Positions 39,924 through 53,956 of a stretch of 64,000 nucleotides of DNA are shown piece by piece (the first letter of the stretch is position 1; every line of letters begins with the position of its first letter). A program made the position numbers and the translations under genes. The notes under the pieces are model-generated. The model was not told the origin of the DNA. It made no database searches and saw nothing but the letters and a program-made list of their open reading frames with translations. Origin of the DNA: Alphaproteobacteria bacterium (lineage in GTDB: Bacteria; Pseudomonadota; Alphaproteobacteria; Micavibrionales; Micavibrionaceae); NCBI GenBank assembly GCA_009995595.1, contig JAACPE010000005.1, forward strand, positions 1 through 64,000, given 5' to 3'.

Positions 39924-39942
39924 TACCCCCAAATATACCCCC
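39924..39942. promoter_or_regulatory. candidate integrase arm-type sites, left end
   Basis: Two TACCCCC heptamers 12 bp apart (39924-39930 and 39936-39942). The 17-mer beginning at 39924 is identical to 53750-53766 near the integrase gene, at the other end of the island. Confidence 0.5.
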
Positions 39943-39953
39943 GAGTGTTGAAA

Positions 39954-39983
39954 AAACCCAGAGGGGTTTAATCCTCTGGGTTT
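39954..39983 (-). terminator. rho-independent terminator of the CMD gene
   Basis: AAACCCAGAGG and CCTCTGGGTTT form an 11-bp stem with an 8-base loop. On the minus strand a T-run follows, 27 bases after the stop of the carboxymuconolactone-decarboxylase-like gene. Confidence 0.85.
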
Positions 39984-40010
39984 GTGTGATGGGGAAATAT
40001 CACAAACTTT

Positions 40011-40358
40011 TTAATCCTGCAAATCTTCATCCCAGACTGTCATGGCGCGGCGAATGTGGGGAATGGTTATAGAGCCGCCAACAAGCATCCCGATAGAGAC
40101 AGCCTCGGATAATTCTTCCGATGTAACGCCAGCTTCTTTACAAGCAATCAGATGATATAAAATACAATCATCACAACGCAGGACAAGAGAAGCAGTAAAT
40201 CCTAAAAGTTCCTTTGTTTTCTTATCCAAAGCCCCTTTTTGATAAGCACCAGCATCTATACCATAAAACTTCTTTTGATTGATATTGGCATACTTAGCCA
40301 GAATTTCATTCTGCCTATCTCTTGTTTCTTTAAACTCTTCTACTTTTGATTTTGTCAT
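40011..40358 (-). CDS. carboxymuconolactone decarboxylase (AhpD-like) family protein
   Basis: A 115-residue protein of the AhpD/CMD fold. The family core is visible as LGFTASLVLRCDDCILYHLI with a CxxC pair and downstream histidine, then ACKEAGVTSEELSEAVSIGM. Such proteins are either alkylhydroperoxidases using the CxxC or ring-acid decarboxylases; the CxxC plus His favours a redox role. It follows the FAD/NAD(P) gene by 13 bases on the same strand and is probably cotranscribed. The physiological substrate is unknown. Confidence 0.88.
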   Translation of the reverse strand: MTKSKVEEFKETRDRQNEILAKYANINQKKFYGIDAGAYQKGALDKKTKELLGFTASLVLRCDDCILYHLIACKEAGVTSEELSEAVSIGMLVGGSITIPHIRRAMTVWDEDLQD

Positions 40359-40371
40359 TTATTTTCCTTTG

Positions 40372-41811
40372 TTAAGATGGAGCGGCAATCATACCCTGTT
40401 TTATTTTTTGGACTGATCTTTCGGCTATATGCGAAAGACCATCCCTGAATGTTTCTACCCCCCATCGCTGAGAATTGCAGGATGGACCAGCGAGAAACAA
40501 ATTATTCCAATTTTGTTCGCCAAAAGCAAAGGCATTTTTATCACGATCATGCCGTTTCAATGCTTTTCTTTCATCTAATTTTCTTAGTAAAGGCGAAGAA
40601 ACGTAATTATTATCTGAAATAGCCTTCATAGAATAAGAAGAACTATTAAAAAATCCAGCAATCTTGAGAGGGTTGTGTCCTTGAAGTGTAACAACAAAGC
40701 CATCTGTTACCTCAGCTATATCAGCTTTTAGCATATCAGCCTGTAAAAACCGTAATTGGCCACTCTTCTCATATTCTTGCATCAATTTGAAGCGTTCTGG
40801 CGAGGTTGGATTGCCGTATAATGCTCCAACATGACCAATAAACTTAGAAAAGTTATCGCGTGTGTAGCGGTTTTCAATTACTTCTAAGAGATCATGAGGG
40901 TTAAATCGTGAAACGATATGCCCCATCGGAAACCCTTGGCTTTGCCCCTCCTGTAGGTCTTTATCAAACAAGTCCTTTAAATCTTCAAAACATAACTCGA
41001 CTTCTTGAGTAACCGCCTGTTTTGTCAAAAATTGATATTGGTAACTTCCTTTATTTTCTCTATGTGCCTTTGCATCAAATAGCCACGGCTTTACCAAACG
41101 GCGTGACACCGCATAAATAGGATTAGGAAACTTGATATGATCTAGTAAGGCCAAGCTATCTAGCATTGACTGACTTGTGCCTACAATCATAACAGGGTCG
41201 ACATTGCCTTGTAAGGCGCGTTTAGCCTTTTCTTTATCATAAGGCGCTGAGAAATAATGCGGATTGTGGCTATATTCTGAAAGTAAATCGGAACGAGAAT
41301 GCCCAGAGGCTAAGACAATCATGTCTGCATGATCGGCATTATAGTTGTCCGAAACAACAATATATTTTCCATTATCTGTGGGGCAAATATTAGCCACATT
41401 GGAAACAACCACATCCACACGGCCAAAGGCTAATTTTGTATAGGTTTGGGCGGCTTTTTGAAAAACCTCCTGTAAATATTCACCATAAATACTTCTGGGT
41501 ACAAAATCGTCTTGATTATAAGGATGTTGCTTATTTTCCAGCCATGTAGAAAAATGCTCAGGATATTCTGGGAAGGGTGACATGGCATAAGCGGGCTGAT
41601 TTAAAAGAAAGACCCCTTCATTGTCTAAGGCATAAGGCTCTCCTCTGCCAATAGACCCATCTTTATCATATAGTCTAAAGTTTATTTTATGATCAGGGGC
41701 AGAAGCCCAATCTGATATTGTTTTTTGTTCTATAAGTTTTAGCATTTGTTGTGCGGCAATCATTGTTCCTGAACAGCCGCCGCCGATAATAGCAATAGTT
41801 GTGTTACTCAT
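40372..41811 (-). CDS. YdhS-like FAD/NAD(P)-binding protein
   Basis: A 479-residue flavoprotein. The N-terminal dinucleotide motif is IAIIGGGCSGTMIAAQQML and a second nucleotide site follows as VDPVMIVGTSQSMLDSLALL near residue 205. GRGEPYALDNEGVFLLNQPA resembles the COG4529/HpyO-like group of FAD-NAD(P)-binding proteins, which includes N-hydroxylase-like enzymes. GGGAGAG stands upstream of the ATG. Its neighbour is a CMD-family protein. It could be a tailoring oxidoreductase for a small molecule, but this is inference. Confidence 0.82.
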   Translation of the reverse strand: MSNTTIAIIGGGCSGTMIAAQQMLKLIEQKTISDWASAPDHKINFRLYDKDGSIGRGEPYALDNEGVFLLNQPAYAMSPFPEYPEHFSTWLENKQHPYNQDDFVPRSIYGEYLQEVFQKAAQTYTKLAFGRVDVVVSNVANICPTDNGKYIVVSDNYNADHADMIVLASGHSRSDLLSEYSHNPHYFSAPYDKEKAKRALQGNVDPVMIVGTSQSMLDSLALLDHIKFPNPIYAVSRRLVKPWLFDAKAHRENKGSYQYQFLTKQAVTQEVELCFEDLKDLFDKDLQEGQSQGFPMGHIVSRFNPHDLLEVIENRYTRDNFSKFIGHVGALYGNPTSPERFKLMQEYEKSGQLRFLQADMLKADIAEVTDGFVVTLQGHNPLKIAGFFNSSSYSMKAISDNNYVSSPLLRKLDERKALKRHDRDKNAFAFGEQNWNNLFLAGPSCNSQRWGVETFRDGLSHIAERSVQKIKQGMIAAPS

Positions 41812-41985
41812 TTTTACTCTCCCAAAAAGTTATTGTTCTTGAGAGAAGATGACTGATTACCTGATATACCTTCAATAAAACCAATGAAAACAGGGCATTT
41901 TGCAACCATTAGCGAATAACTTGAGTTTTGATTACACTTTTATGGTGTGGTTTTTTGGGTAAGAAAAATATCTTACAACTACTAT

Positions 41986-42240
41986 TCAATCGTTAAGGCG
42001 GTTTTTCTTTTCAAAATCATTGGCTATGTTACGTAAAAAATTTGCCGTGTGGTATTGTAGCTCCCGTGATACGTCACAGTTTTTATCAGGATTTATTTCT
42101 CGTTCTATATCACTGTGCTTTTTCTTCGCATAGGCTTCAATTCTTTTGAAAGAACCATCAATGTAATCCATGTGATCAAAAATTCCTGATAACTGTTCTG
42201 ACAGTGTTGATAGGCTTTTAGATTTTTTATTGTCGTTCAT
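41986..42240 (-). CDS. small hypothetical protein
   Basis: An 84-residue charged, helical protein (for example KSLSTLSEQLSGIFDHMDYI and DGSFKRIEAYAKKKHSDIER) of unknown family. ATG 42240 has GGAGGA upstream with good spacing; the in-frame GTG at 42252 lies within that site. No transmembrane or signal segment. It lies between the FAD gene and the terminator of the cyclodipeptide-synthase-like operon. Confidence 0.6.
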   Translation of the reverse strand: MNDNKKSKSLSTLSEQLSGIFDHMDYIDGSFKRIEAYAKKKHSDIEREINPDKNCDVSRELQYHTANFLRNIANDFEKKNRLND

Positions 42241-42386
42241 GTCTTCCTCCACAATTTAAAGGTCATTGTTAAATGAAAGAAAAAAATCAGAAGAAAAAAT
42301 ATCCTGAAAACCTTATTATACAACTGCTAGCGTATACTCTTACGATTAAATACACCTGTATCGTGTGATGAAGGTTGTAAAAGAAA

Positions 42387-42416
42387 CCGCTCTTGCTTAT
42401 AAGAAAACAAGAGCGG
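42387..42416 (-). terminator. rho-independent terminator of the XRE-CDPS operon
   Basis: CCGCTCTTG and CAAGAGCGG form a 9-bp stem with a 12-base loop; on the minus strand a T-rich stretch follows. It lies 21 bases after the stop of the 42438-43193 gene. Confidence 0.82.
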
Positions 42417-42437
42417 CTCTGTGGTGGGGAAAACTTC

Positions 42438-43193
42438 TTATTTTAAAGCCGATACCAAAGGTTGTTTTTGATTTGCGGCAATTGGTTGAGCAGAAAAAGA
42501 AGAATGTCTTTCATCAGCTTGTGTTCCATGAATAGCCAATCGTATAAAACCTGTATTAGAAATGGCCGAAGGTAAGTGGCTTGGTTTATTATCACGGAGA
42601 TAGGCGAAACAATTTAATTGTTTTCCAGGGTATATAGTGGTTGCGGGTAACTCCTTTAAAATGACAGAGTAAACAGCAAGTTCTTCGATAAGATATTTAA
42701 TACTGGTGTTTATCTTGGCGGTATCTGTTTCTGGATGCCCGTTCTTTCTAAGTGAAAAAGCATGAACATCTTCCATTATAGATTGACGAAATTCGGGGTC
42801 AGTTTCTAATGCAGAATTAAAAATCCGTCTATTTTCTTCAACTTCTTGTGCGTGATCTGTCAACCAATGTGACCAACGGACAACATCATAAGGCATAGAA
42901 AGATTATCAAGAATAGGTAGGTTTTGCTCCAACCATTTATCACCTGCCAGCGTTGATATAGCAAAAGCCTGTTGCAGAGGAATGCCGCGCTCCTGTGCAT
43001 AATTAAAACGGTTTAGAGTATCTGAAAGACCAATTCGGAAGCGTTTAAAGCCCTGTTGATTTGCCCAATCCACCATTGCTTCAAGACCTTCGCCCTGATG
43101 GTTACGACTATGTAGGCTTATACCCATATAGCCAGTCTTCCCTATTAGCCTTTGCCATGCTTTTTTTGCGCCTGCTGCTTTTGCAATAGCCAT
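42438..43193 (-). CDS. probable tRNA-dependent cyclodipeptide synthase (CDPS)
   Basis: CDPSs make cyclic dipeptides from two aminoacyl-tRNAs. This 251-residue protein resembles the CDPS fold by eye: YMGISLHSRNHQGEGLEAMV aligns with the nucleophile region of AlbC (G-I-S with Ser as the equivalent of Ser37), DPEFRQSIMEDVHAFSL aligns with the segment containing ED in AlbC, and YLIEELAVYSVILKELPATT aligns with the Y178-x3-E182 catalytic pair. Residues equivalent to AlbC N40, Y202 and H203 appear to be Ser, Phe and Ala, so it does not fit the NYH or XYP subfamily types. Its ATG shares one base with the upstream XRE stop (TAATG). Substrate tRNAs are unknown; the call rests on reading, not a search. 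Confidence 0.72.
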   Translation of the reverse strand: MAIAKAAGAKKAWQRLIGKTGYMGISLHSRNHQGEGLEAMVDWANQQGFKRFRIGLSDTLNRFNYAQERGIPLQQAFAISTLAGDKWLEQNLPILDNLSMPYDVVRWSHWLTDHAQEVEENRRIFNSALETDPEFRQSIMEDVHAFSLRKNGHPETDTAKINTSIKYLIEELAVYSVILKELPATTIYPGKQLNCFAYLRDNKPSHLPSAISNTGFIRLAIHGTQADERHSSFSAQPIAANQKQPLVSALK

Positions 43194-43849
43194 TATTTCA
43201 CCCCGTTAAATTTATTAGGGGCTGTTGAGGTATCAGGGATTTTTGATTGTCTCCAGATATATTCAAAAGTTCTTCTTGCTTCTTCTGAAATGACTTTGTC
43301 TTCGATAACAATAATCCGAGGAATATCTGTCCAAGTCACAAGATAAGCAACTTTATTTCCGAACATAACTTTCACATCGCCCTTAACGTAAAGGTTTTCG
43401 TCCATCCATCTATATTCACTAAGATTACCCATGATGTGGGTATCATTTAATTTTATTAAAGAACGAGTTTTAATACCCATATCTCGTAGTAATTGATTTT
43501 GCGCTATAACTTCAGGAGAAGATTTGCGCTCGTCAGCACCGCTTTTTAAAACTTCATCGCCCTTATTAAGCGTTGCTTCAATTTCTTTTAATAACTGTAA
43601 GTAACAGTTTGTACCTTCAATAGTATAGGTGTTAGTTGTTCTGTGTTCGATGCCGTTTGGTGTAAAAAAGAAACCGTCTGCTTCAAAGGCATTAACAATG
43701 GCAGAAATGGTTTTACTGTTGGGATCAGCAATTTCACCACGCTCTAAACCTGAGATAGTAGGTTGCGTTAAACCAGCCTGTTTAGCCAGTTGCCCCTGTG
43801 ACCAACCTCTAGCTTCTCTTATTGCTCTTAATTGCCATGCCTTAAACAT
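43193..43849 (-). CDS. XRE-family regulator with C-terminal effector-like domain, coupled to CDPS
   Basis: A 218-residue protein. Residues 8-40 are a classic XRE helix-turn-helix (IREARGWSQGQLAKQAGLTQ then PTISGLERGE). After a linker, residues about 130-210 form a second domain (EYRWMDENLYVKGDVKVMFG, then RRTFEYIWRQS) that I cannot name. Its stop overlaps the CDPS start by one base, so the two proteins are made together. It is probably an autoregulator of the operon that responds to a signal through the C-domain; this is inferred. Confidence 0.83.
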   Translation of the reverse strand: MFKAWQLRAIREARGWSQGQLAKQAGLTQPTISGLERGEIADPNSKTISAIVNAFEADGFFFTPNGIEHRTTNTYTIEGTNCYLQLLKEIEATLNKGDEVLKSGADERKSSPEVIAQNQLLRDMGIKTRSLIKLNDTHIMGNLSEYRWMDENLYVKGDVKVMFGNKVAYLVTWTDIPRIIVIEDKVISEEARRTFEYIWRQSKIPDTSTAPNKFNGVK

Positions 43850-43855
43850 AAATTC

Positions 43856-43884
43856 TGTATAAACACTATATTTTATAAAATCAA
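43856..43884 (-). promoter_or_regulatory. promoter of XRE-CDPS operon, giving a near-leaderless mRNA
   Basis: On the minus strand TTGATT (43884-43879) and TATACA (43861-43856) are exactly 17 bp apart. The ATG of the XRE gene lies 6 bases after the -10 box, so transcription should start at or next to the start codon, without room for a ribosome-binding site. Confidence 0.6.
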
Positions 43885-43892
43885 TTTATTTT

Positions 43893-43907
43893 TTAACTGA
43901 TTGTTAA
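43893..43907. promoter_or_regulatory. candidate operator between divergent operons
   Basis: TTAAC and GTTAA flank five bases (TGATT) just upstream of the -35 box of the XRE-CDPS promoter. The short inverted repeat is a plausible XRE-regulator site; no second copy is seen. Confidence 0.4.
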
Positions 43908-43972
43908 CCTTTTAAGCGTAAAACAACATCATTCATTAATTATGTTAATTACTTTGTAAGGGGAAACTACAA

Positions 43973-44398
43973 ATGCTAAATACTAAAAAAGACCAAGAAA
44001 CGAGCCTACAGGCTCTTTATGAACAGCTAGAGGTGCGCTATGGCGCAGGATTAGCTCAAGAAATCGTCAATCAAATCAAAAAGACCGAAGATCAGGACAA
44101 TAAGCCTGAATTTATGGCTGTGAAGGCTTTATCGGAAGTTTTAGAGGTTTTTAGATCCGAGGCACAGGAAATCGTTAAAAAGTTAAAAATTGAGCGTTCT
44201 AAACCGTTACCAACCGAAATTGCTAATTTGGATGCAAAACGCCTTCAAAACGACCTTAACAACATTTTTGAATGTTACTGGCTTGTTCAACATGGTTTTT
44301 ACAGGGCTTACAACCAAGCCATGAAAATCTGTGAAGTTCCTACAACCTATCGCTACGATAAATATACAAAGCCAACAAAAATGAAGATGGCAGCGTAA
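43973..44398 (+). CDS. hypothetical protein
   Basis: A 141-residue, highly helical soluble protein (SLQALYEQLEVRYGAGLAQE, KALSEVLEVFRSEAQEIVKK) divergent from the XRE-CDPS operon. AAGGGG lies upstream of the ATG. It precedes a second XRE gene by 37 bases, so the two may be one transcript. No family recognised. Confidence 0.65.
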   Translation: MLNTKKDQETSLQALYEQLEVRYGAGLAQEIVNQIKKTEDQDNKPEFMAVKALSEVLEVFRSEAQEIVKKLKIERSKPLPTEIANLDAKRLQNDLNNIFECYWLVQHGFYRAYNQAMKICEVPTTYRYDKYTKPTKMKMAA

Positions 44399-44435
44399 TA
44401 TTTAGAAAAGCGTAAACACGGTAGGGAAAAAGACC

Positions 44436-44837
44436 ATGAATACACGATATGAAGAAGAATTTAACAAGGCGTTGGGTTTTAGGCTTATGACGCTAAGGCA
44501 GAGCCATAAAATGTCACAAGAGTATTTAGGCGCAAAGTTGGGCGTACGCTACCAGCAGATACAGAAATATGAAACTGGCGCAACGCGAATGCCACCAGAA
44601 CGCATTGCAACCTGTGCTAGGCTGTTTTCTGTGCCGGTCGAGTATTTCTTTGGATCAGAACAATCAGAAGTACATTCAGGCTATAGCAAAGCTGTTTTAA
44701 CGGTTGCTGCTGAAATCATGGCCTTACCTAATGATGATGTTCGCAAAAGCGTTTATCATCTGGCGCGGACAATTAATAAGTCATGGGATATTCAGGATAA
44801 TGAGGAAGTGAAAATTAAGAACAAAGTTAGTAGATAA
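44436..44837 (+). CDS. XRE-family transcriptional regulator
   Basis: A 133-residue regulator with a helix-turn-helix at residues about 14-45 (MTLRQSHKMSQEYLGAKLGV, then QQIQKYETGATRMPPERIA), the style common in alphaproteobacterial prophages and islands. The remaining half (AAEIMALPNDDVRKSVYHLA) is probably for dimerisation. It faces the res gene, convergent, and is downstream of a hypothetical gene. Its target is not evident. Confidence 0.85.
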   Translation: MNTRYEEEFNKALGFRLMTLRQSHKMSQEYLGAKLGVRYQQIQKYETGATRMPPERIATCARLFSVPVEYFFGSEQSEVHSGYSKAVLTVAAEIMALPNDDVRKSVYHLARTINKSWDIQDNEEVKIKNKVSR

Positions 44838-44853
44838 TTTTTTCACTTTAAGG

Positions 44854-44889
44854 AGGTAGGTTCTTTTAATTAGTGAAAGACCCTACCTT
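44854..44889. terminator. possible bidirectional terminator between XRE gene and res
   Basis: AGGTAGGTTCTTT and AAAGACCCTACCT form an imperfect stem with one mismatch. The 3' arm overlaps the res stop region at 44866. T-runs on both sides are short. Confidence 0.4.
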
Positions 44890-47487
44890 TTCTTCCCAAT
44901 CATCTTCCATCAGCATGTGTAATGACATTGATGTATTGCTATCGGCTTTCAGGTCTATTGTGCCAATATCAAAAGGCTGGCGATAATAATCGGTAAGCAA
45001 ATCAAAAAGACGGGTTTTATATTCCGTATCATCATTCCCTTTTAGCTGTAATCCTTTTGTTTCCAATACAAATAAACGATTTTCACTCATACAGGCAATA
45101 AAATCGGGGTAAATTTTGTTTCTTTGCCATCCTTGTAATGAATACGCATCCTGTTTTCTTTCAACCATTCTATGCCACCATGTTACGGCATCACCATCCG
45201 CTAAGTATAAGGCAAAATCTTTTTCAAGGTTATTTAAGTCTTTTTCAAAAACCAGCTCAAACAGGCCATTTTCAACCTTATCGCCGCTTTCTTTGAATAA
45301 TTTGCGCTCATTTTGACGCGCCATAACTTTTAGTTGATTTGCAATTTCAAAATTAAGGTAATCATTTCCGTTAGTAATAAGGCGGAAAATAATATCACCT
45401 GATTTTAGTCTATCTTTGAAGATTTTTTCAGAATACTCATGAACACGTTGTTTCAAATGCCGTTTCATACTATCCAAAAGATAAAGGCGGCTATTATAAA
45501 TTGCTTCATCGTCATATCCCTTTTTATTGAGGGCTTCTATAGTTTCCATCAATATTCGTGTGGCTTGCCAAGGATTAGGAATAACATCCATTAAAGGGCG
45601 TGAAAGAAAGGCTAAATCAAGTTTCTTTTCAACCCAAACGTCATGTTTTTGTGTTTTTGTAACAAGTTCCAATTCGCTTTGCTGATAGGCTAGATTTTTG
45701 CGTTCTTCAACATCAATAGCGGTTTCTGTTGTTAAGGGAATGTCTGTTGAATCCAAGAAATGTTCAATGTTATAGGTCAATTCATGCCAAGGGATATGGC
45801 TAAGAATATCTTGGTCATAGTTTATATCGCGCCAATTATTCCCATCTTTATGTAAGACTTTGGGGAGAAAAACCCTCAACCCCTCAAATTTTTCATTACG
45901 CTTTATTATGCGTGGCTCTGCACCCTGAATATCTGGATTACCTTCTGCACCTTCTGCTCGTACAAATTCAGAAAGCCCTGACATACCTTCATCTTCTAAT
46001 CCTTTTCGGACATTATCAACGGCAGTGTTTACATCCTGATCATAGCAAAACACATAGCATTGATTTAGCGCATCAATGCTGGTTGAGCGAGCATCAGGTT
46101 GGCGTAAGACACGTCCAACCATTTGCGTCATAGCTGTTTGCGCTGTGGTTTTATCCAGTAAAGCCAAGACATAAGCGAAAGAGCAATCCCACCCTTCCTG
46201 CAAGGCTTCTTTGGTGATGATATATTTAACAGGGCATAATGGATCAAATAGATCAGTATTGCCTAATTCATCGGTTTCTGATGATTTGATACGTATTTCA
46301 TCTTCTTTCACCGAAAGCCGTTCAATGAGATAATCACGGGCGTCTAGCGCATGAATTTTCTGTCCATCACGCTGGTCTTTACCTGTACGTTCAACACGCA
46401 CAACCATAATTGGCCTAATATAACGCCCATCATCTGCTTGTAAGTCATGTGCTTTATCCGCTAACTCTGCTAAACGACCATGAGCCATCGTTAGCGTATT
46501 GTGCCAATCGCCATTTTTTGTATTGATTATGTTGATAGGTAGCTTGACCATTTGTTCATCTTTTAGATCAAGGCCAGATACATCCACCAATATATTGCTG
46601 ATGGGACTACGCACATTTGGGGTGGCAGATAACTCTAAAATAAAAGAGGGGTTAAACCCATTCAGACTGTCACGGGTATTTTCAGAATAGGCTTTGTGAC
46701 CTTCGTCAATCACAACAACAGGACGCAACATTTTAAGCGTATTCACAAGGCTTTGTTTAACTGATATTCCTGCGATTGCCCCTGCATCGGCCATATCATT
46801 GGTATCAAGGTCAGGATATTCATTTAACAATTCGTTGTTGGCGGTGTGATCATCCAATTCAGGAAAAAAGCTGGTATATTTACCCGCATCCCGAAAGATT
46901 TTGAGAAAATCCCTATTATTGGCGCGGTTCGTTGCGGCCAAGCGCACAAGCATAATACAAAGATAATTTTCTGTATCTGCTTTGGTGAACGGATCATCTT
47001 TTTCTAAAACCTTTACACGACCACCAGAGGCACGTTCCAAACATTGCCGATAGGGGTGTTCACGACTGGCTAAGGCTTTCCATGTTTGGCGGTAAATTTG
47101 TACCGTTGGGACAACCCATAAAACAAGCCCCGTTTGTTTTTTGAAAAAATCAGTTTGAACGCGACCAACACATTCTGCTGCCAACAGAGTTTTACCACCA
47201 CCTGTTGGGACTTTCAGGCAGATATGGGGGATTGAACGCTGGCGGGTGTCATATCGCGCCACATAATCAGGAATCTTTAATCCAGCAGGCGTTTTAACAC
47301 GAGGAATAACAGTCTTGATTTGCGCCCATGCGTTTTTTGGCCAATCGCCCATCCCATCGGGAATATCTACATCAGCGTCAATAAGGGCTTTAATAGCCTT
47401 TTCTGCTTTGTGTTTTTCACTATAAAGGGCGCGTAAATAATCATCATAACGCTCAATCACACGGCGTTGGTATTCCTTTAACTCCAT
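44866..47487 (-). CDS. type III restriction enzyme, Res subunit
   Basis: The ATP-dependent endonuclease of a type III R-M system. The 873-residue product has a superfamily 2 helicase core (Walker A VPTGGGKTLLAA, DEGH in VVIDEGHKAYSE, ELSATPN, and a QEGWDCSF motif with QMVGRVLRQ), and a C-terminal PD-ExK nuclease region (PDFIACMSENRLFVLETKGL). It starts 4 bases after the mod stop, so mod and res form an operon. Full length with no frameshift seen, so it is likely active. Confidence 0.94.
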   Translation of the reverse strand: MELKEYQRRVIERYDDYLRALYSEKHKAEKAIKALIDADVDIPDGMGDWPKNAWAQIKTVIPRVKTPAGLKIPDYVARYDTRQRSIPHICLKVPTGGGKTLLAAECVGRVQTDFFKKQTGLVLWVVPTVQIYRQTWKALASREHPYRQCLERASGGRVKVLEKDDPFTKADTENYLCIMLVRLAATNRANNRDFLKIFRDAGKYTSFFPELDDHTANNELLNEYPDLDTNDMADAGAIAGISVKQSLVNTLKMLRPVVVIDEGHKAYSENTRDSLNGFNPSFILELSATPNVRSPISNILVDVSGLDLKDEQMVKLPINIINTKNGDWHNTLTMAHGRLAELADKAHDLQADDGRYIRPIMVVRVERTGKDQRDGQKIHALDARDYLIERLSVKEDEIRIKSSETDELGNTDLFDPLCPVKYIITKEALQEGWDCSFAYVLALLDKTTAQTAMTQMVGRVLRQPDARSTSIDALNQCYVFCYDQDVNTAVDNVRKGLEDEGMSGLSEFVRAEGAEGNPDIQGAEPRIIKRNEKFEGLRVFLPKVLHKDGNNWRDINYDQDILSHIPWHELTYNIEHFLDSTDIPLTTETAIDVEERKNLAYQQSELELVTKTQKHDVWVEKKLDLAFLSRPLMDVIPNPWQATRILMETIEALNKKGYDDEAIYNSRLYLLDSMKRHLKQRVHEYSEKIFKDRLKSGDIIFRLITNGNDYLNFEIANQLKVMARQNERKLFKESGDKVENGLFELVFEKDLNNLEKDFALYLADGDAVTWWHRMVERKQDAYSLQGWQRNKIYPDFIACMSENRLFVLETKGLQLKGNDDTEYKTRLFDLLTDYYRQPFDIGTIDLKADSNTSMSLHMLMEDDWEEKVGSFTN

Positions 47488-47491
47488 AGGG

Positions 47492-49267
47492 CTAATCCCC
47501 CATGACGCGGTGAATGGCGTATGGTAATTGGCAATAGGTAATACCCATTTCGGTTAATTCCTTCTGCCCCATAAATTTATGCGTTGCAAAAACCAGCGCA
47601 GATTTTCCTGTATCCTCACGCGCCTTTGATATGCTTTGCGCCAATGGCATGTTGAGGGCAGAGTCACCAGAGCGTAAAAAAGCAATATCAGGTTTGTAAA
47701 CTAGATGAACACGGTAATTTTCTGTTTCACCGATGTAATAATCTGCCCCTTGTTCCACTTTATCCAGCGTTAAGCCCGTAGCGGTATAAAACGCATAGCG
47801 TGCCAATTCATCATAAGAGGGAAGTTTTTCACCTTTCAGAAGGTTTTCAATGTTAATTTCTTGTCCTAATTCACAGAAAGTAAATGACCCGCCTAGCCCT
47901 TCTTTTAAGGCTATGTCCTTGGCGGTTGGCACACCCTTTATGACACGCCGCACCCGTTCGGCGGTTGTGTCATTGGCATATTCTTCCATTTCCACCAGAA
48001 TAAATTTACGATTGCCGCCATCTTCTTTATTTAAGGCTAAAACAGCATGAGCCGTTGTTCCTGATCCAGCGAAGGAGTCTAAAATAATAGCATCCGTTTT
48101 AGCTGCAATTTTAATTATATCCTTAACGAAAAAAGATGATTTTGTTGTAAAGTTTATATTTTTTTGAAAGATATTTTTCGTCTCATTTTTAGCAGTAGTC
48201 GTACTATATTCTGGTTTATAGAATAGAGATTTTTGCTTATTTGAAGGTAATTCTCCTAATTCTGGTCTTTGTTTTTTATAGAGTGAGTAGCCTTTCTTTC
48301 CTTTGAAAAAAAGAACGTCGTAAGAAATTCTATGTGAATTTTCTTCACTATATCCCCACCGCCATCTTCCAAAATTTCCGTATTCATCCTTTGGTAAAAC
48401 GACAGTATATGCTTGTTCTTCATACTTTTTTATTAAGGACTCTAGATAATTATCATTAAAAGAATTATTTTCGCTATTATATATTTCTTTATGTTCTTCA
48501 CTGGAAATTGTTGTAACTTTACTGTTCTTTATTAAAATAGGGTAGAACATATAAGGTCTTTTTTCTCTTAGCGCATCTTCTCCTGTCGCGCGTAATGGAG
48601 CACCTTTTTTATAAAGTCCAATATCATCCTCTTGCCAATTTTGTAAGTCCTCGTCTGTAAGAGGATATTCTTTAATTGCGCAAAGACTTTTATTTTTTGC
48701 AAAAACAACCAGATATTCATGTGTTCCCGCAAAGCCAAATTGATCTTGATTACCTTTCAAATTACTAATAACAGGACAAGCGGCAATTAAATTCTGCTCA
48801 CCCAACAATTCTGATAAAACAGATATCAAGTTATGTAATTCATTATCATCTATACTTATAAAAATTAGTCCTTTTTCAGATAATAATTCGCACAATAACG
48901 TCAGACGAGGCCACATCATGCAGAGCCATTTATCATGGCGTTCTAAATCTTCCTTATCTACGGGATTACCCTCTTTTTTTAGCCACTCCTTCATAGTTGG
49001 GGCATTTACATTGTCACTGTAACACCACCCTTCATTGCCTGTGTTATAGGGAGGATCAATGTAAATACATTTAATTTTTCCAGCGTATTGGGGCAAAAGG
49101 GCTTTCAGGGCATGAAGATTATCACCCTGAATAATCAAATTATCATCCAGCGAAGGTTTACCGTCTTTTGGTAGGGATTTGGCTCGATCAATGTCCAGCT
49201 GCTTAAACGGCACACTTAAATGATGCGCGTAAACAAATTGTTTTCCCTTAAAATCCAGTGTTGGCAT
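47492..49267 (-). CDS. type III DNA methyltransferase, Mod subunit (adenine-N6)
   Basis: Methylates adenine in an asymmetric site and gives the complex its specificity. The 591-residue product has motif IV as YIDPPYNTG near residue 70 and motif I as DSFAGSGTTAHAVL near residue 393, an order (IV before I) typical of beta-class Mod proteins. The middle (about residues 160-370) is the target-recognition domain and its DNA, roughly 48100-48850, is visibly more AT-rich than the ends, as when such domains are swapped. Upstream is a shared control region with a small HTH gene. Confidence 0.93.
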   Translation of the reverse strand: MPTLDFKGKQFVYAHHLSVPFKQLDIDRAKSLPKDGKPSLDDNLIIQGDNLHALKALLPQYAGKIKCIYIDPPYNTGNEGWCYSDNVNAPTMKEWLKKEGNPVDKEDLERHDKWLCMMWPRLTLLCELLSEKGLIFISIDDNELHNLISVLSELLGEQNLIAACPVISNLKGNQDQFGFAGTHEYLVVFAKNKSLCAIKEYPLTDEDLQNWQEDDIGLYKKGAPLRATGEDALREKRPYMFYPILIKNSKVTTISSEEHKEIYNSENNSFNDNYLESLIKKYEEQAYTVVLPKDEYGNFGRWRWGYSEENSHRISYDVLFFKGKKGYSLYKKQRPELGELPSNKQKSLFYKPEYSTTTAKNETKNIFQKNINFTTKSSFFVKDIIKIAAKTDAIILDSFAGSGTTAHAVLALNKEDGGNRKFILVEMEEYANDTTAERVRRVIKGVPTAKDIALKEGLGGSFTFCELGQEINIENLLKGEKLPSYDELARYAFYTATGLTLDKVEQGADYYIGETENYRVHLVYKPDIAFLRSGDSALNMPLAQSISKAREDTGKSALVFATHKFMGQKELTEMGITYCQLPYAIHRVMGD

Positions 49268-49292
49268 GTAAAAACCCCTTTAATTGTTACGG

Positions 49293-49361
49293 GTAGTCTA
49301 CACAAGGGCCGCCACATTTCCAAGACGAATGTTACAGGTCGTCTATAGACGAGTAGTCTAC
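49293..49361. promoter_or_regulatory. C-box-like operator cluster between mod and the HTH gene
   Basis: The 113-base divergent gap has two identical GTAGTCTAC boxes (49293-49301 and 49353-49361) and a perfect 14-bp palindrome TCGTCTATAGACGA (49339-49352) joined to the second box, plus a half-site AGACGA at 49323-49328. The spacing resembles the paired sites bound by controller (C) proteins of R-M systems. Confidence 0.65.
49295..49323 (-). promoter_or_regulatory. candidate mod-res promoter overlapping the operator
   Basis: On the minus strand TTGGAA (49323-49318) and TAGACT (49300-49295) are 17 bp apart, each matching consensus at four of six positions. The -10 box is inside the first GTAGTCTAC box, so a bound regulator would block it. 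Confidence 0.45.
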
Positions 49362-49380
49362 AATATCGCTTGCTTGTGGC

Positions 49381-49596
49381 ATGGATGTTTATGGGCATTT
49401 GGCAACAAAAATAAGAAAGTTGAGAAGTGATCGGCAATGGTCACAGGAAGAACTTGCTTATCGTACTGATTTGCACCGCACATATATAAGCCACATTGAA
49501 AACGGGAAAAGAGAAATATCAGTTGAAACCATGTGCAAAATTGCAAAAGGATTTGATATTACCCCATCTGAATTGATGCAAGACATTCAGTTATAA
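49381..49596 (+). CDS. small XRE/C-protein-like regulator
   Basis: A 71-residue single-domain helix-turn-helix protein (ATKIRKLRSDRQWSQEELAY, RTYISHIENGKREISVETMC), the size and composition of R-M controller proteins. It is divergent from mod, with the operator cluster between them, and no further gene downstream except a convergent recombinase it overlaps by 10 bases. As a C protein it would set the timing of R-M expression after entry into a new host; this is inferred from position and sequence. Confidence 0.82.
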   Translation: MDVYGHLATKIRKLRSDRQWSQEELAYRTDLHRTYISHIENGKREISVETMCKIAKGFDITPSELMQDIQL

Positions 49597-50630
49597 GGTT
49601 TTTCTTGTTCTATGTTATGTAATTTTACGCTGGATATAATTTCTATCTGATCATCAACCGAAAGATGGCCATAACTGCTTAATGTCGTATCAATAGATTC
49701 ATGGCCTAAATTCTGACGGACTGCGTTCAAAAATGCGGGGCTTTGTGTTTGAGCATACCGCGCCAATGTTGAACGAAAAGAATGAGGGCGAATATATTCA
49801 AACCCCGCCTCTATGAAGGCTTTTTTGAATACGTTCCTAATTGTTGTATCTGACTTTATAATTTCCTTTTTAATTTTTTGTTCCAGCAGGTTTTTTGTAC
49901 CAAAGCGGTTATCAACTTTTGGGAATAGTGGATCAGATTCACTAAAACCTATTGATCGTAAATAATCACGCCAATCAATGACGTTTGTTATAATATCATC
50001 GGGCAAGGGGATAAAAACAACATGCCTTGTTTTTCCAAATTTGACGTTCATGTTTTTGGGGCAAACATAGATAAAATAGCGACCATCTTGTTCTATCAAA
50101 TTTTTCAATTTAACCGTGCGTAATTCAGATATACGCAATGTACAAATAGCCTGTAAAGATACCATTGCTTTGTCCCTTCTTTCCTTATCGGTTTTAGAGG
50201 GCATCTTTCTGACTGTTTTCAAAATTTGATCAAAACTATATGATTTTTGATATTCTTTGGCTTTTGCGGCATTGCGATGGTTACGTGACACGTTAAGAAA
50301 ATCAATATCATTATAATTGATTTTGCTGCGATACCCGCGCTGGCGTTCCAACCATCTTAAAAAATCTTTGAGCGCGCGAAGAGTATCCGTGATGTAAGAA
50401 GACGAAACATCACTGTTCAAAAGGCTTTGCACGTACTTACTAGCGATATGGCTGTTAAATTTTTCAAATCCTGCAAAATCCATGAATAATTCATAGTCAC
50501 GGATATTCTTTAAGGATGCAATAATCGTCTTTTCATCTTTATGGTCAATGCCTCGCAAATGTTGGCGGTACTTATACTTTACACGCTCATTCGCTGGGTT
50601 GTATTTGTGCTTTTTCTTATCTTTTATCAT
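49587..50630 (-). CDS. tyrosine recombinase (phage-type integrase)
   Basis: A 347-residue site-specific recombinase. The catalytic set is visible: first Arg in ICTLRISELRTV, HxxR as PHSFRSTLARYA, and the final LGHESIDTTLSSYGHL with His and the nucleophile Tyr. The N-terminal part contains a core-binding domain. I start at ATG 50630 because CAGGAG stands 9 bases upstream; an in-frame GTG at 50657 overlaps the upstream gene further. It is distinct from the P4-type integrase at the tRNA end. What it acts on is unknown. Confidence 0.92.
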   Translation of the reverse strand: MIKDKKKHKYNPANERVKYKYRQHLRGIDHKDEKTIIASLKNIRDYELFMDFAGFEKFNSHIASKYVQSLLNSDVSSSYITDTLRALKDFLRWLERQRGYRSKINYNDIDFLNVSRNHRNAAKAKEYQKSYSFDQILKTVRKMPSKTDKERRDKAMVSLQAICTLRISELRTVKLKNLIEQDGRYFIYVCPKNMNVKFGKTRHVVFIPLPDDIITNVIDWRDYLRSIGFSESDPLFPKVDNRFGTKNLLEQKIKKEIIKSDTTIRNVFKKAFIEAGFEYIRPHSFRSTLARYAQTQSPAFLNAVRQNLGHESIDTTLSSYGHLSVDDQIEIISSVKLHNIEQEKPYN

Positions 50631-51144
50631 CAAACAAATCTCCTGTGGTTGACTCACCTAATGTGCTGTCGGTAATTGTTTCTAAGTGAGTCTTACCGTG
50701 GGGATGTTCACAATCGTATAATTCCGAAACACCAACCAGTTTGAATTTATGCCGTAACTTGGATAAATCAGATAATTTGTAGAATTGATACATTGGCTTT
50801 TTACAGGTTCGGCAGATTCCCTTGACTGATAATTTCTGAACATCCTGCGTTACATGAATTTTGTTTTCAAAGATATGGCGTGCATCCTGACAGCTTGGGC
50901 AATAAAGCTGGTCAAAGTCAGTTTTGCATTTGTTCTTGTTATTGTTTTCTTTGAGATAGGTGATTAGGTCATTGCCATAGATTAAGGCTGGTCTGCCCTT
51001 ATCTGTTATTTTAAGGCCGTTCTTAATCCATTTTCTGACAGTTTGAGGGTGCAGCCTCAAATCAGAAAACACAGCACAAATATCGTCAACATCATACGTT
51101 TGCCAATATCGCACCAACCTATGTGGGTACAAGCGTTTTGACAA
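50617..51144 (-). CDS. zinc-ribbon protein with helix-turn-helix-like N-terminus
   Basis: A 175-residue protein. The first half has a DNA-binding-like segment (VDDICAVFSDLRLHPQTVRK). The second half has CPSCQDARHIF and CRTCKKPM, two CxxC pairs forming a zinc ribbon. The gene overlaps the recombinase start by 14 bases and starts with TTG four bases after the AlpA-like gene's stop (GAGG upstream), so all three are one operon. Possibly an accessory factor for recombination or transcription; no family recognised. Confidence 0.65.
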   Translation of the reverse strand: MSKRLYPHRLVRYWQTYDVDDICAVFSDLRLHPQTVRKWIKNGLKITDKGRPALIYGNDLITYLKENNNKNKCKTDFDQLYCPSCQDARHIFENKIHVTQDVQKLSVKGICRTCKKPMYQFYKLSDLSKLRHKFKLVGVSELYDCEHPHGKTHLETITDSTLGESTTGDLFDDKR

Positions 51145-51148
51145 AAGA

Positions 51149-51343
51149 CTAACCTCGTGTAGATGCGATTAACTCTTTAATATCTTCAACGCGCCATGCG
51201 GTCATTTTTGGGCCAAGTTTGACGGGCTTGGGATAGCGGCCATCTTTAACCCCTGCCCACCATGTTGATTTTGATACAGGGAATACTTTTAAGACTTGGG
51301 GTAAACGGACAAAGCCTGTTTCGGGTAAAATATAGTTGTGCAT
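51149..51343 (-). CDS. AlpA-like transcriptional activator/excisionase
   Basis: A 64-residue winged-helix protein of the AlpA/MerR-like group. The pattern is GFVRLPQVLKVFPVSKSTWW, then GRYPKPVKLGPKMTAWRVED, including the typical P-x-P-V-K-L-G-P run and W-R-x-x-D/E-I. In prophages and integrative elements such proteins activate integrase genes or promote excision. AAGGAG precedes the ATG. First gene of an operon with the zinc-ribbon and recombinase genes. Confidence 0.9.
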   Translation of the reverse strand: MHNYILPETGFVRLPQVLKVFPVSKSTWWAGVKDGRYPKPVKLGPKMTAWRVEDIKELIASTRG

Positions 51344-51405
51344 TACTGTTCTCCTTCATGCGATTAACATTAAGGAAAGCCTATGCAGTTTATTTTAAGA
51401 AAACA

Positions 51406-51438
51406 CCGTAGTTGCGGCATCCAGTACCGCAGTTGCGG
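51406..51438. promoter_or_regulatory. two CCG-N6-CGG boxes 21 bp apart
   Basis: CCGTAGTTGCGG (51406-51417) and CCGCAGTTGCGG (51427-51438) start 21 bp apart, two helical turns, in the space between the 51448-52485 gene and the AlpA-like gene. A dimeric regulator could bind both on one face of the helix. Confidence 0.55.
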
Positions 51439-51447
51439 TAAAAGAAG

Positions 51448-52485
51448 TTAAGAAGGGTCATTCAATGCTTTTTTACCTTCTGCGAATTTTGCTTCAAGCT
51501 GCCTTTTTGACAAACCCTCTTTTTCTCCATAATTTCCATGAATAGCGTCAATTATAGATTGTTGGGTTCTGAATTTAGAATAGGGCTTACCGTTAGAGTC
51601 TTCTCCAAGAGTCAATCCCACCAGCGCACCAATTATTTTTTGGTAGCCGCGCCGTTCTCTGTCATTAAGCGGTTTTCTGCTTTGGGGTTGTTTTGTATTT
51701 TCTAAACCGTTAAGATACAAAGGTAGTGTCTTTGCCCAATCAATAAACTCCATCGGTCTTACTTTGCACTCTTGTAAGCTACAATCTTTTTCCTCTTTAT
51801 CCGTATTGTAGTCTATAAATTCTAAATTATGGGCTTTATACGCATCTATCACGTATTCAATAACTTTCTGTCCTGTTTTTTTAGATTTAATAAATATGAA
51901 ATTTTTTTCAGTATTTAATTTTGCTTCGTACCCTAAAACGTAGGCAATAGCGTTTGGTAGTTGCCACAGAGGCTCTTTCATCAAATTTTTTAATGTATCC
52001 TGATTAATTTTAGGAAAAGATGCGTTTTGACCATCGCGGTAACTTTTATCAAATTGATAGCTGGAAATGAGGGGTTTTATATCTTTGATAATATCATCAC
52101 TTAATCTCATACCAGTAGATTCAGCCCAAATTACAAAACTTACTGTATAGGCTTCTGGCCATTCATTGGGTTTAGGGGGTGAAGGTGATGGATCGGGGTC
52201 TTCTGTATATCCCTCAATCTCCCCATTAGATAAGGCTTTTTGTGCTTGTTCATATAGTACATACCCCTCTTTATCTTCTTTCAGGGATTTTTCTAATTGA
52301 CCGTATAATTCAGGGTCATGGAAATAAGAAAAAAGTTGGTTGATTTGTTCTATTCTGTGTTCGTCATTTTCAAAATCTAAAAACAAATAAAACACCAAAC
52401 AAATTAATGGTGCATGATTTTTAAGAATGGCTCTTTTAGGAATAAGATCGTAAAGAGGTGACGAAAAAGTATTTTGCTCTGACAT
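51448..52485 (-). CDS. hypothetical protein
   Basis: A 345-residue soluble protein of unknown family. Charged and helical stretches alternate (for example LEKSLKEDKEGYVLYEQAQK and WAESTGMRLSDDIIKDIKPL). A Pro-rich stretch (DPDPSPSPPKPNEWPEAY) lies near residue 100. The stop is 104 bases from the AlpA-like start and the gene begins 10 bases after the P4-type integrase stop, so it may be cotranscribed with the integrase. Confidence 0.6.
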   Translation of the reverse strand: MSEQNTFSSPLYDLIPKRAILKNHAPLICLVFYLFLDFENDEHRIEQINQLFSYFHDPELYGQLEKSLKEDKEGYVLYEQAQKALSNGEIEGYTEDPDPSPSPPKPNEWPEAYTVSFVIWAESTGMRLSDDIIKDIKPLISSYQFDKSYRDGQNASFPKINQDTLKNLMKEPLWQLPNAIAYVLGYEAKLNTEKNFIFIKSKKTGQKVIEYVIDAYKAHNLEFIDYNTDKEEKDCSLQECKVRPMEFIDWAKTLPLYLNGLENTKQPQSRKPLNDRERRGYQKIIGALVGLTLGEDSNGKPYSKFRTQQSIIDAIHGNYGEKEGLSKRQLEAKFAEGKKALNDPS

Positions 52486-52494
52486 AAACCATTT

Positions 52495-53718
52495 TTAGGC
52501 TTTTTTAGGGAACTTGCCAACTATTACGGTTTTATTTTGTGCAATATCATCCAAATAATTTGCCCATTCTTGCATCATTTTTTTACGCTCATTGAGAAAT
52601 TGCGCCCTGTCATAGGCTCTTTGCACCATACTTTGCGGCGCATGTGCAAGTTGGCGGTCTATAACCTCATGACGGTAATTCAAGTTTTCTTTAATTGTTG
52701 TCATGGCTAACGCACGGAAGCCATGGCCTGTCATGCGTCCCTTAAAGCCTAATCGCTCCAATCCTTTTAAGACTGTATTGTTGCTCATATGCTTACGTGG
52801 TGAATGATGACCTGGAAAAATCCATCCCCATTCTTCATTTCTTGATTTTAAGTCTTTCAATATATCTATGGCTTGTTTTGAAAGAGGAACGACATGCTCA
52901 TTACGCATTTTCATTCTTTCGGCAGGAATAATCCATTGGGCATTGTCTAAATCAAATTCATCCCATGTGGCTTCAATCAACTCTTTTGTTCTGACGAATG
53001 TTAGCATTAACAAACGCATAGCGTGACGGGTATCAACATGCAATCTGGCATCATTGCGGGTAATGGCATTTAATAACTCAGGAATTTCTTTAGTATCTAT
53101 GCAAGCATAATGCTTTTTAACAACAGGTTTTAAGACCATGCCAATGTCAGATACAGGGTTAATTTCAGCTTTTTCATTGATGATGGCATAGGCAAAAATC
53201 TGATTGCAATACTGACGTAAGCGATGTGCAGGTTCATACGCACCGCGACTTTGGACTTTTTTCAATGCTTTGATTACGTTTCTTGGTTTTATTTCTGTTA
53301 TGGGCATATAGCCGATTTCAGGGAAAACATCCCTTTCAAGCCGCCTTAAAACAGTGTCGGCGTGTCGTGGCGTCCATTTGTGCTTGAAATTATCATGCCA
53401 TTCGCGTGCTGTAGACTCAAAGGTGTTGGTTGCTCTTTCTTCTGCGTTTTCTTTGTTATCCTTTTTGGCTTTTAGAGGATCAATGTTTTGCTCAAGAAGT
53501 TTTCTGGCTTCTGTACATCTTTCTTCTGCTTCTTTCAGTGAAATTTCAGGATATACCCCAAAAGCCAATAATTTTTCTTTACCCGCAAAGCGGTATTTCA
53601 TGCGCCAGTATTTTGCGCCGTTCGGCATGACATGAAGATACAAACCACGTCCAGCCGCCAATTTATAAGCCTTTTCCGCTAATTTGGCGTTTTTGCATTG
53701 CAGATTCGTTAGGGTCAT
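52495..53718 (-). CDS. P4-type tyrosine integrase
   Basis: Catalyses integration and excision of the island at the tRNA-Gly gene. The 407-residue product has the N-terminal DUF4102-like arm-binding domain (GLYLHVMPNGAKYWRMKY, KLLAFGVYPEISLKEAEERC) typical of P4/tRNA-targeting integrases, then the core-binding and catalytic domains with Arg in TRHAMRLLMLTFVRTKEL and HGFRALAMT, and an AQHA-like motif near the C-terminus (LAHAPQSMVQRAYDRA) with the Tyr. ATG 53718 is chosen; a TTG at 53730 also exists. It adjoins the tRNA as expected. Confidence 0.93.
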   Translation of the reverse strand: MTLTNLQCKNAKLAEKAYKLAAGRGLYLHVMPNGAKYWRMKYRFAGKEKLLAFGVYPEISLKEAEERCTEARKLLEQNIDPLKAKKDNKENAEERATNTFESTAREWHDNFKHKWTPRHADTVLRRLERDVFPEIGYMPITEIKPRNVIKALKKVQSRGAYEPAHRLRQYCNQIFAYAIINEKAEINPVSDIGMVLKPVVKKHYACIDTKEIPELLNAITRNDARLHVDTRHAMRLLMLTFVRTKELIEATWDEFDLDNAQWIIPAERMKMRNEHVVPLSKQAIDILKDLKSRNEEWGWIFPGHHSPRKHMSNNTVLKGLERLGFKGRMTGHGFRALAMTTIKENLNYRHEVIDRQLAHAPQSMVQRAYDRAQFLNERKKMMQEWANYLDDIAQNKTVIVGKFPKKA

Positions 53719-53719
53719 T

Positions 53720-53790
53720 GGGGGTATCAACTCCGTCCATTTTTATTTATACCCCCAAATATACCCTCAAAAATCTTGGATTTGGGGGTA
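53720..53790. promoter_or_regulatory. candidate integrase arm-type sites, right end
   Basis: Heptamer TACCCCC or its complement occurs at 53720-53726, 53750-53756 and 53784-53790, plus TACCCTC at 53762-53768. The 17-mer at 53750-53766 is identical to 39924-39940. The first copy touches the integrase start codon, so binding there could also regulate the integrase gene. Confidence 0.5.
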
Positions 53791-53881: not shown

Positions 53882-53956
53882 TGGAGCGGGTGAAGGGATT
53901 CGAACCCTCGGCTTCAACCTTGGCAAGGTTGCGCTCTACCCCTGAGCTACACCCGC
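53882..53956 (-). tRNA. tRNA-Gly (anticodon GCC)
   Basis: A 75-base tRNA on the minus strand (reads GCGGGTGTAGCTCAGGGGTA to start, ends in CCA encoded as TGG at 53882-53884). The acceptor stem GCGGGTG/CACCCGC pairs fully; the anticodon loop is TTGCCAA giving GCC; the T arm contains GGTTCGAAT. It is complete at the right end of the island, and its 3' end is copied at the left end. Confidence 0.97.

Follow-up and report, generated by a model that had tools for sequence, protein, structure and literature searches.

In type II restriction–modification (R–M) systems, the controller (C) protein switch works because the restriction gene (res, R) lies behind the C gene; in PvuII, the C and M genes are divergent, with C boxes between them. 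C proteins are widespread among type II systems and have been described almost exclusively there, with a type I case known from Mycoplasma, in one Mollicutes group (PMC5282649, PMC12707154). In the type II system Esp1396I, for example, the C protein binds a single operator located at the start site of the M gene and thereby represses that gene (PMC4041747). For the type III systems EcoP1I and EcoP15I, the reported regulation consists of transcription from separate promoters with limited read-through and of a delay in translating res (PMC12707154). Here, we report the computational analysis of a 64,000-nt stretch of DNA from an alphaproteobacterium (the window), in which a C gene lies divergent from a mod–res pair of type III, a class for which no dedicated genetic switch is known. 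We consider it likely that the two share a 113-bp control region containing three C-dimer operators, of which the one nearest mod, O_mod, represses mod–res.

The initial annotation had described positions 44866–49596 as a type III R–M system, and Pfam, PADLOC and the order of the motifs confirm both enzyme genes. The mod gene (47492–49267, minus strand) encodes a 591-residue methyltransferase that matches PADLOC MTase_III (PDLC03640, E = 1e-168), in agreement with Pfam (PF01555), and its motifs, DPPY at residue 71 followed by FAGSG at residue 399, are arranged in the beta-class order. The res gene (44866–47487, minus strand) encodes an 873-residue restriction subunit with a full-length match to PADLOC REase_III (PDLC03653, E = 2e-274), again in agreement with Pfam (PF04851, ResIII), and contains a Walker A motif (GGGKT), a DEGH motif and a C-terminal PD...ETK motif. 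At the sequence level, the catalytic motifs of both Mod and Res are intact, and the genes themselves look intact. A beta-class N6 methyltransferase adjoining a helicase-nuclease is the composition of a type III system; the pair does not consist of separate R and M enzymes with C before R, as a type II system would. Because mod lies 4 bp upstream of res, the two genes are likely to form one operon; a separate res promoter may lie inside mod. The 71-residue XRE gene that had been placed divergently from mod is found at 49381–49596 on the plus strand, and the intervening gap (49268–49380) is exactly 113 bp long, as first described.

The product of this 71-residue XRE/HTH_3 gene is, by homology, a genuine R–M controller (C) protein. 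It matches PADLOC Control_protein (E = 1e-21), and its nearest solved R–M relatives in the PDB are C.BclI (E = 2e-9), C.AhdI (E = 6e-9) and C.Esp1396I (E = 8e-9). Residues R33, T34, Y35 and R44 align without gaps with R35, T36, Y37 and R46 of C.Esp1396I, in which R35, T36 and R46 are DNA- and base-contacting residues (PMC4041747). A structure model of the protein built without an alignment was of mediocre quality (pLDDT 71.5), and Foldseek ranked C.AhdI, C.Esp1396I and C.BclI at the top; because no match reached E ≤ 0.001, we do not use this ranking as evidence. The locus thus combines the marks of the C family, that is, a small XRE/HTH_3 homologue, conserved base-contacting residues and a tandem C-box before its own start. 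The usual, although not universal, type II layout, with R directly behind C under the C promoter, is absent: the C gene runs instead into the 3′ end of a convergent integrase gene, and res is located downstream of mod. The plasmid homologues of C that we examined (54% identity and lower) adjoin a methyltransferase gene, and in two of them the HTH gene is immediately followed by one annotated as a ScaI-family endonuclease. The same genome also carries a second C-like gene (40% identity) with its own C-box (L147:7327–10003, at about 27–30 kb of G000:C1). After it come two short frames, which may together be a single broken R gene, and then a convergent N6_N4 methyltransferase. This second locus appears type II-like, resembling a C–R/M locus, and with two C proteins in one cell cross-talk is conceivable.

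The initial annotation had reported two identical boxes and a 14-bp palindrome in the gap, with a candidate mod −10 element inside one box, and each of these elements is present. The box GTAGTCTAC occurs at 49293–49301 and 49353–49361 and nowhere else in the 64 kb, against an expectation of 0.05 copies; none of the shuffled sequences contained as many as two. The palindrome TCGTCTATAGACGA occupies 49339–49352, and the candidate −10 element, TAGACT (49295–49300, minus strand), falls within the left GTAGTCTAC. As a refinement of this description, we suggest that the functional units are three dimer operators of about 19 bp rather than two boxes and a palindrome. The upstream regions of C homologues have a common tandem box, roughly ATGTnACTnATAGTCTGTAGACTnATAGTCTAC. 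A profile built from C-gene upstream regions, with the window left out, scores 25.8 at 49329–49361, compared with 9.9 for the next best position in the 64 kb, and a second profile gives 22.8 at the same site compared with 6.2. The palindrome and the right-hand GTAGTCTAC are pieces of this one canonical tandem C-box, whose halves are the distal operator OL (49329–49347, plus strand) and the proximal operator OR (49344–49362, plus strand). Between the end of the 33-bp match and the ATG of the C gene are 19 bp; the corresponding distance in homologues is mostly 19–22 bp.

The left GTAGTCTAC is part of a single predicted operator, O_mod (TTGTTACGGGTAGTCTACA; 49284–49302, plus strand), which covers the candidate mod −10 element and start region. 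O_mod is identical to OL at 15 of 19 positions and lies exactly 45 bp from it. The distance between O_mod and the mod start codon is 17 bp, and that between the third operator and the start of the neighbouring gene in L139/L107 is 18 bp. Scored alone with the general family profile, O_mod is unremarkable (rank 14 or 26 of 127,966 positions); the case for it, and its weakness, is that it draws on likeness to OL and on conserved spacing rather than on a single-operator profile score. A candidate mod −35 element, TTGGAA (49318–49323, minus strand), is separated from the −10 element by a 17-bp spacer. The promoter so read from the sequence is weak, with four of six matches in each hexamer, and a generic sigma-70 promoter scan of the region returned none at 9/12. 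Measured from the respective operator, genome G019 has AAGACT where TAGACT stands here.

This arrangement suggests a mechanism in which C dimers would bind three sites, O_mod, OL and OR. As in other members of the C family, OL–OR would autoregulate C, with activation at low and repression at high C concentration. C bound at O_mod would exclude RNA polymerase from the putative mod −10 element and so repress mod, and the downstream res would be repressed together with it through the operon structure. In a new cell lacking C, mod–res would be freely expressed; as C builds up, it would reduce expression of the operon to a maintenance level. Because res follows mod and not C, the type II delay logic is not transferable to this locus, and a brake on the whole operon is to be expected. 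The role of C is likely to be that of an autoregulated brake on mod–res, and such a burst followed by braking is more likely than the timing scheme of type II systems. The proposal of a C-protein-style switch in the initial annotation stands in part: the C protein is real, its operator is canonical, and an extra operator, conserved in position and spacing, lies over the putative mod promoter. What does not carry over is the type II wiring, in that C is alone and convergent with an integrase gene and res lies behind mod. Given a C-family protein, a canonical operator and a conserved extra operator, the sequence is best read as a C-regulated type III system.

Because the mod promoter is weak, C might instead activate rather than repress mod from OL. 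C would then switch on mod–res, and itself, from OL–OR at low concentration and shut mod off through O_mod at high concentration, producing a pulse. Type II C proteins do activate at low concentration (PMC12707154), and OL is situated near −50 relative to the putative mod start. However, OL–OR is placed and oriented for the C gene, 19 bp from its start codon, and the literature examined contains no case of a C protein activating a divergent gene. We regard activation of mod by C as unlikely, and favour repression through O_mod.

Comparison with other loci provides further evidence on the third operator. It is found exactly 45 bp from OL in five loci, namely the window and four loci from other genera whose C proteins are 73% (L184), 53% (L107), 52% (L186) and 46% (L188) identical to the one described here, and in each of the five, of up to 90 spacings tested, that of 45 bp gives the sequence most similar to OL. 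In a search of 385 genomes of the class, the three-operator pattern, allowing at most two mismatches, occurs in two (the source genome and G019), both times beside a C gene; the reversed control pattern has no match in the same 385 genomes. The divergent gene encodes an Mrr_cat endonuclease in L184 and L186, a 405-residue protein with a weak PADLOC candidate match and a nuclease-like appearance by eye in L107, and a 166-residue uncharacterized protein with no Pfam match in L188. From a conserved 45-bp spacing next to differing genes, we infer that the third operator is functional and the module portable. The C gene, OL–OR and a single operator at 45 bp would constitute a portable cassette, which here has an integrase gene on one side and a type III operon on the other.

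The third operator is not present at every C homologue. Four further homologues (L112, L114, L119 and L160) are divergent from members of the Mrr-like or 405-residue families and have OL–OR, with no third site at 45 bp. In L185 (66% C identity), OL–OR is kept, the third operator is absent and the divergent gene is no recognized nuclease. This last locus, together with C homologues that have no R–M gene nearby (L142, L143 and L145), would fit a reading in which C controls no gene but its own, O_mod is residual or of low affinity, and mod–res is independent of C. Against such a reading, the exact 45-bp placement of the third operator is preserved in five loci with divergent C proteins (46–73% identity to the one described here), and this operator tends to accompany a divergent restriction-type gene. 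We consider control of C alone quite improbable, and continue to read O_mod as a probable repressor site for mod–res.

The genes divergent from C homologues include two recurrent families. One, an Mrr_cat family of about 310 residues with the N-terminus ...YIKLGxxGKWE..., is found divergent from C-protein genes at L184:424–1434 and L186:466–1389 and in L112, L114 and L160; these proteins are apparently C-regulated solitary restriction endonucleases. The other, of 405–410 residues, occurs divergent from C genes in two distant genera (L139:7130–8347 and L119:131–1363, in C-oriented coordinates on the reverse complement of the stored locus), has no Pfam match and looks nuclease-like. The C gene of G019 is, in addition, directly adjacent to the end of a type I hsd operon. 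Downstream of the L185 C homologue is an RloB-like gene (L185:1821–2384), itself preceded by another gene.

The pairing of C with mod is, by comparison, narrowly distributed. The initial annotation had proposed searching type III loci for similar C genes and boxes, and among about 80 loci with relatives of this Mod we found none with a divergent C gene or a comparable C-box; the survey covered 79 loci from genome contigs and relatives, each checked for divergent HTH genes and for C-boxes. The best C-box score in these loci is 16.7, far from mod, compared with 24.2 in the window and at most 19.4 in 64-kb shuffles. One divergent HMM match close to mod (L062) arose from a drifting iterative profile and a low-complexity reading frame, and was rejected on its sequence. 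The viral contigs hold no Mod relatives, and the plasmids hold only relatives below 60% identity. In the loci tested by tblastn with this Mod and Res, no other C homologue lies beside a type III mod, although the test could miss distant type III families. With about 80 Mod relatives lacking such a C gene or box, the C–mod pairing is known from one genome. In L025, whose res is 80% identical, and in L104, from the same genus, integrase-like genes lie upstream of mod and the C gene is absent. Given these two loci and the other Mod relatives without C, the C gene was probably inserted between the integrase gene and mod in this lineage, and the pairing, on this comparison, is not ancient. The Mod of G007, of the same genus, aligns in two pieces in different frames (L104:12517–14218), the first 75% identical (residues 1–124) and the second 41%, possibly through a frameshift or a domain swap.

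The C gene overlaps by 10 bp the 3′ end of a convergent tyrosine recombinase gene (49587–50657, minus strand; PF00589). The surrounding island (39924–53766, about 13.8 kb) is bounded by two copies of a 17-bp direct repeat, TACCCCCAAATATACCC, candidate att sites at 39924–39940 and 53750–53766 (both plus strand), and encodes a P4-type integrase (52495–53730, minus strand; PF13356, PF22022 and PF00589) that adjoins tRNA-Gly (53882–53956). A related genome (G001; L183) holds a different insert of about 8 kb at the same tRNA-Gly position, with a 58-bp tRNA-end repeat, which marks this tRNA gene as an integration hotspot. Elsewhere in the island, a 251-residue protein (42438–43193) with no Pfam match adjoins an XRE gene and recalls, by eye, cyclodipeptide synthases; near it are genes for an FAD-NAD(P)-binding protein (40372–41811) and a CMD-family protein (40011–40358). 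The mobile appearance of the island and the overlap with the recombinase gene could suggest that the HTH gene belongs to the mobile element as an integrase repressor and neighbours mod by chance. However, the C operators are not at the integrase promoter, because the C gene is convergent with the integrase gene. Furthermore, L025 and L104 have integrase-like genes before mod but lack the C gene, and C homologues occur at other nucleases without this integrase. An integrase repressor is therefore very unlikely, and assignment of the HTH gene to the control of mod–res is preferred.

In the open literature searched we found no C-regulated type III system; this is weak evidence, and an earlier listing in a survey of C proteins is possible. 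We regard the locus as a case of a known regulator family linked to an enzyme class where it is apparently undescribed, as part of a recurrent cassette. More broadly, and with reasonable though not high confidence, we propose that type II systems are not the main setting of C proteins: several restriction functions outside type II would have recruited a portable divergent cassette as an autoregulated brake, namely a type III mod–res operon at this locus and, in relatives, Mrr-like genes and others of nuclease-like appearance. If so, the C switch is transferable to enzymes in which R need not be delayed behind M in the same way, because Res acts only with Mod, and the function of C would be to restrain expression, not to set the timing of R. 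That the cassette recurs at Mrr-like endonucleases points to a broader set of C-regulated restriction genes, which searches centred on type II systems would miss, and the 45-bp operator rule is a possible means of finding them.

Several described systems share parts of this organization. A Geobacillus plasmid system (L138) resembles the locus in having divergent C and M genes with C boxes between them; in it, as in PvuII-type systems, R follows C, unlike here, and a third operator 45 bp away was not found in L138. EcoP1I and EcoP15I share the enzyme class and the mod–res gene order, and differ in that a C protein is not mentioned in their reported regulation (PMC12707154). The type I-associated RptR of E. 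coli is likewise a small dedicated repressor whose sites overlap the −10 element of an R–M operon (PMC12255303), but it is not a C protein and it uses 6-bp TAGCTA sites. HsdC of Mycoplasma gallisepticum, a member of the C family from outside type II, apparently represses an entire R–M operon (PMC5282649, PMC12707154); that system, however, is type I, C is the first gene of the operon and the sites are direct repeats (GTGTTAN5) with no palindromic C-box. Esp1396I, a type II system, shares with the locus a tandem OL–OR at the C promoter, a single operator (OM) over the methyltransferase start (PMC4041747, PMC3758141) and the aligned base-contacting residues of C. It differs in its type, in having R behind C under OL–OR and in the convergent arrangement of C/R and M, whereas in the present locus a single promoter probably serves both mod and res, and the C gene stands alone in divergent orientation. 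By analogy, the nearest precedent for O_mod is the OM operator of Esp1396I.
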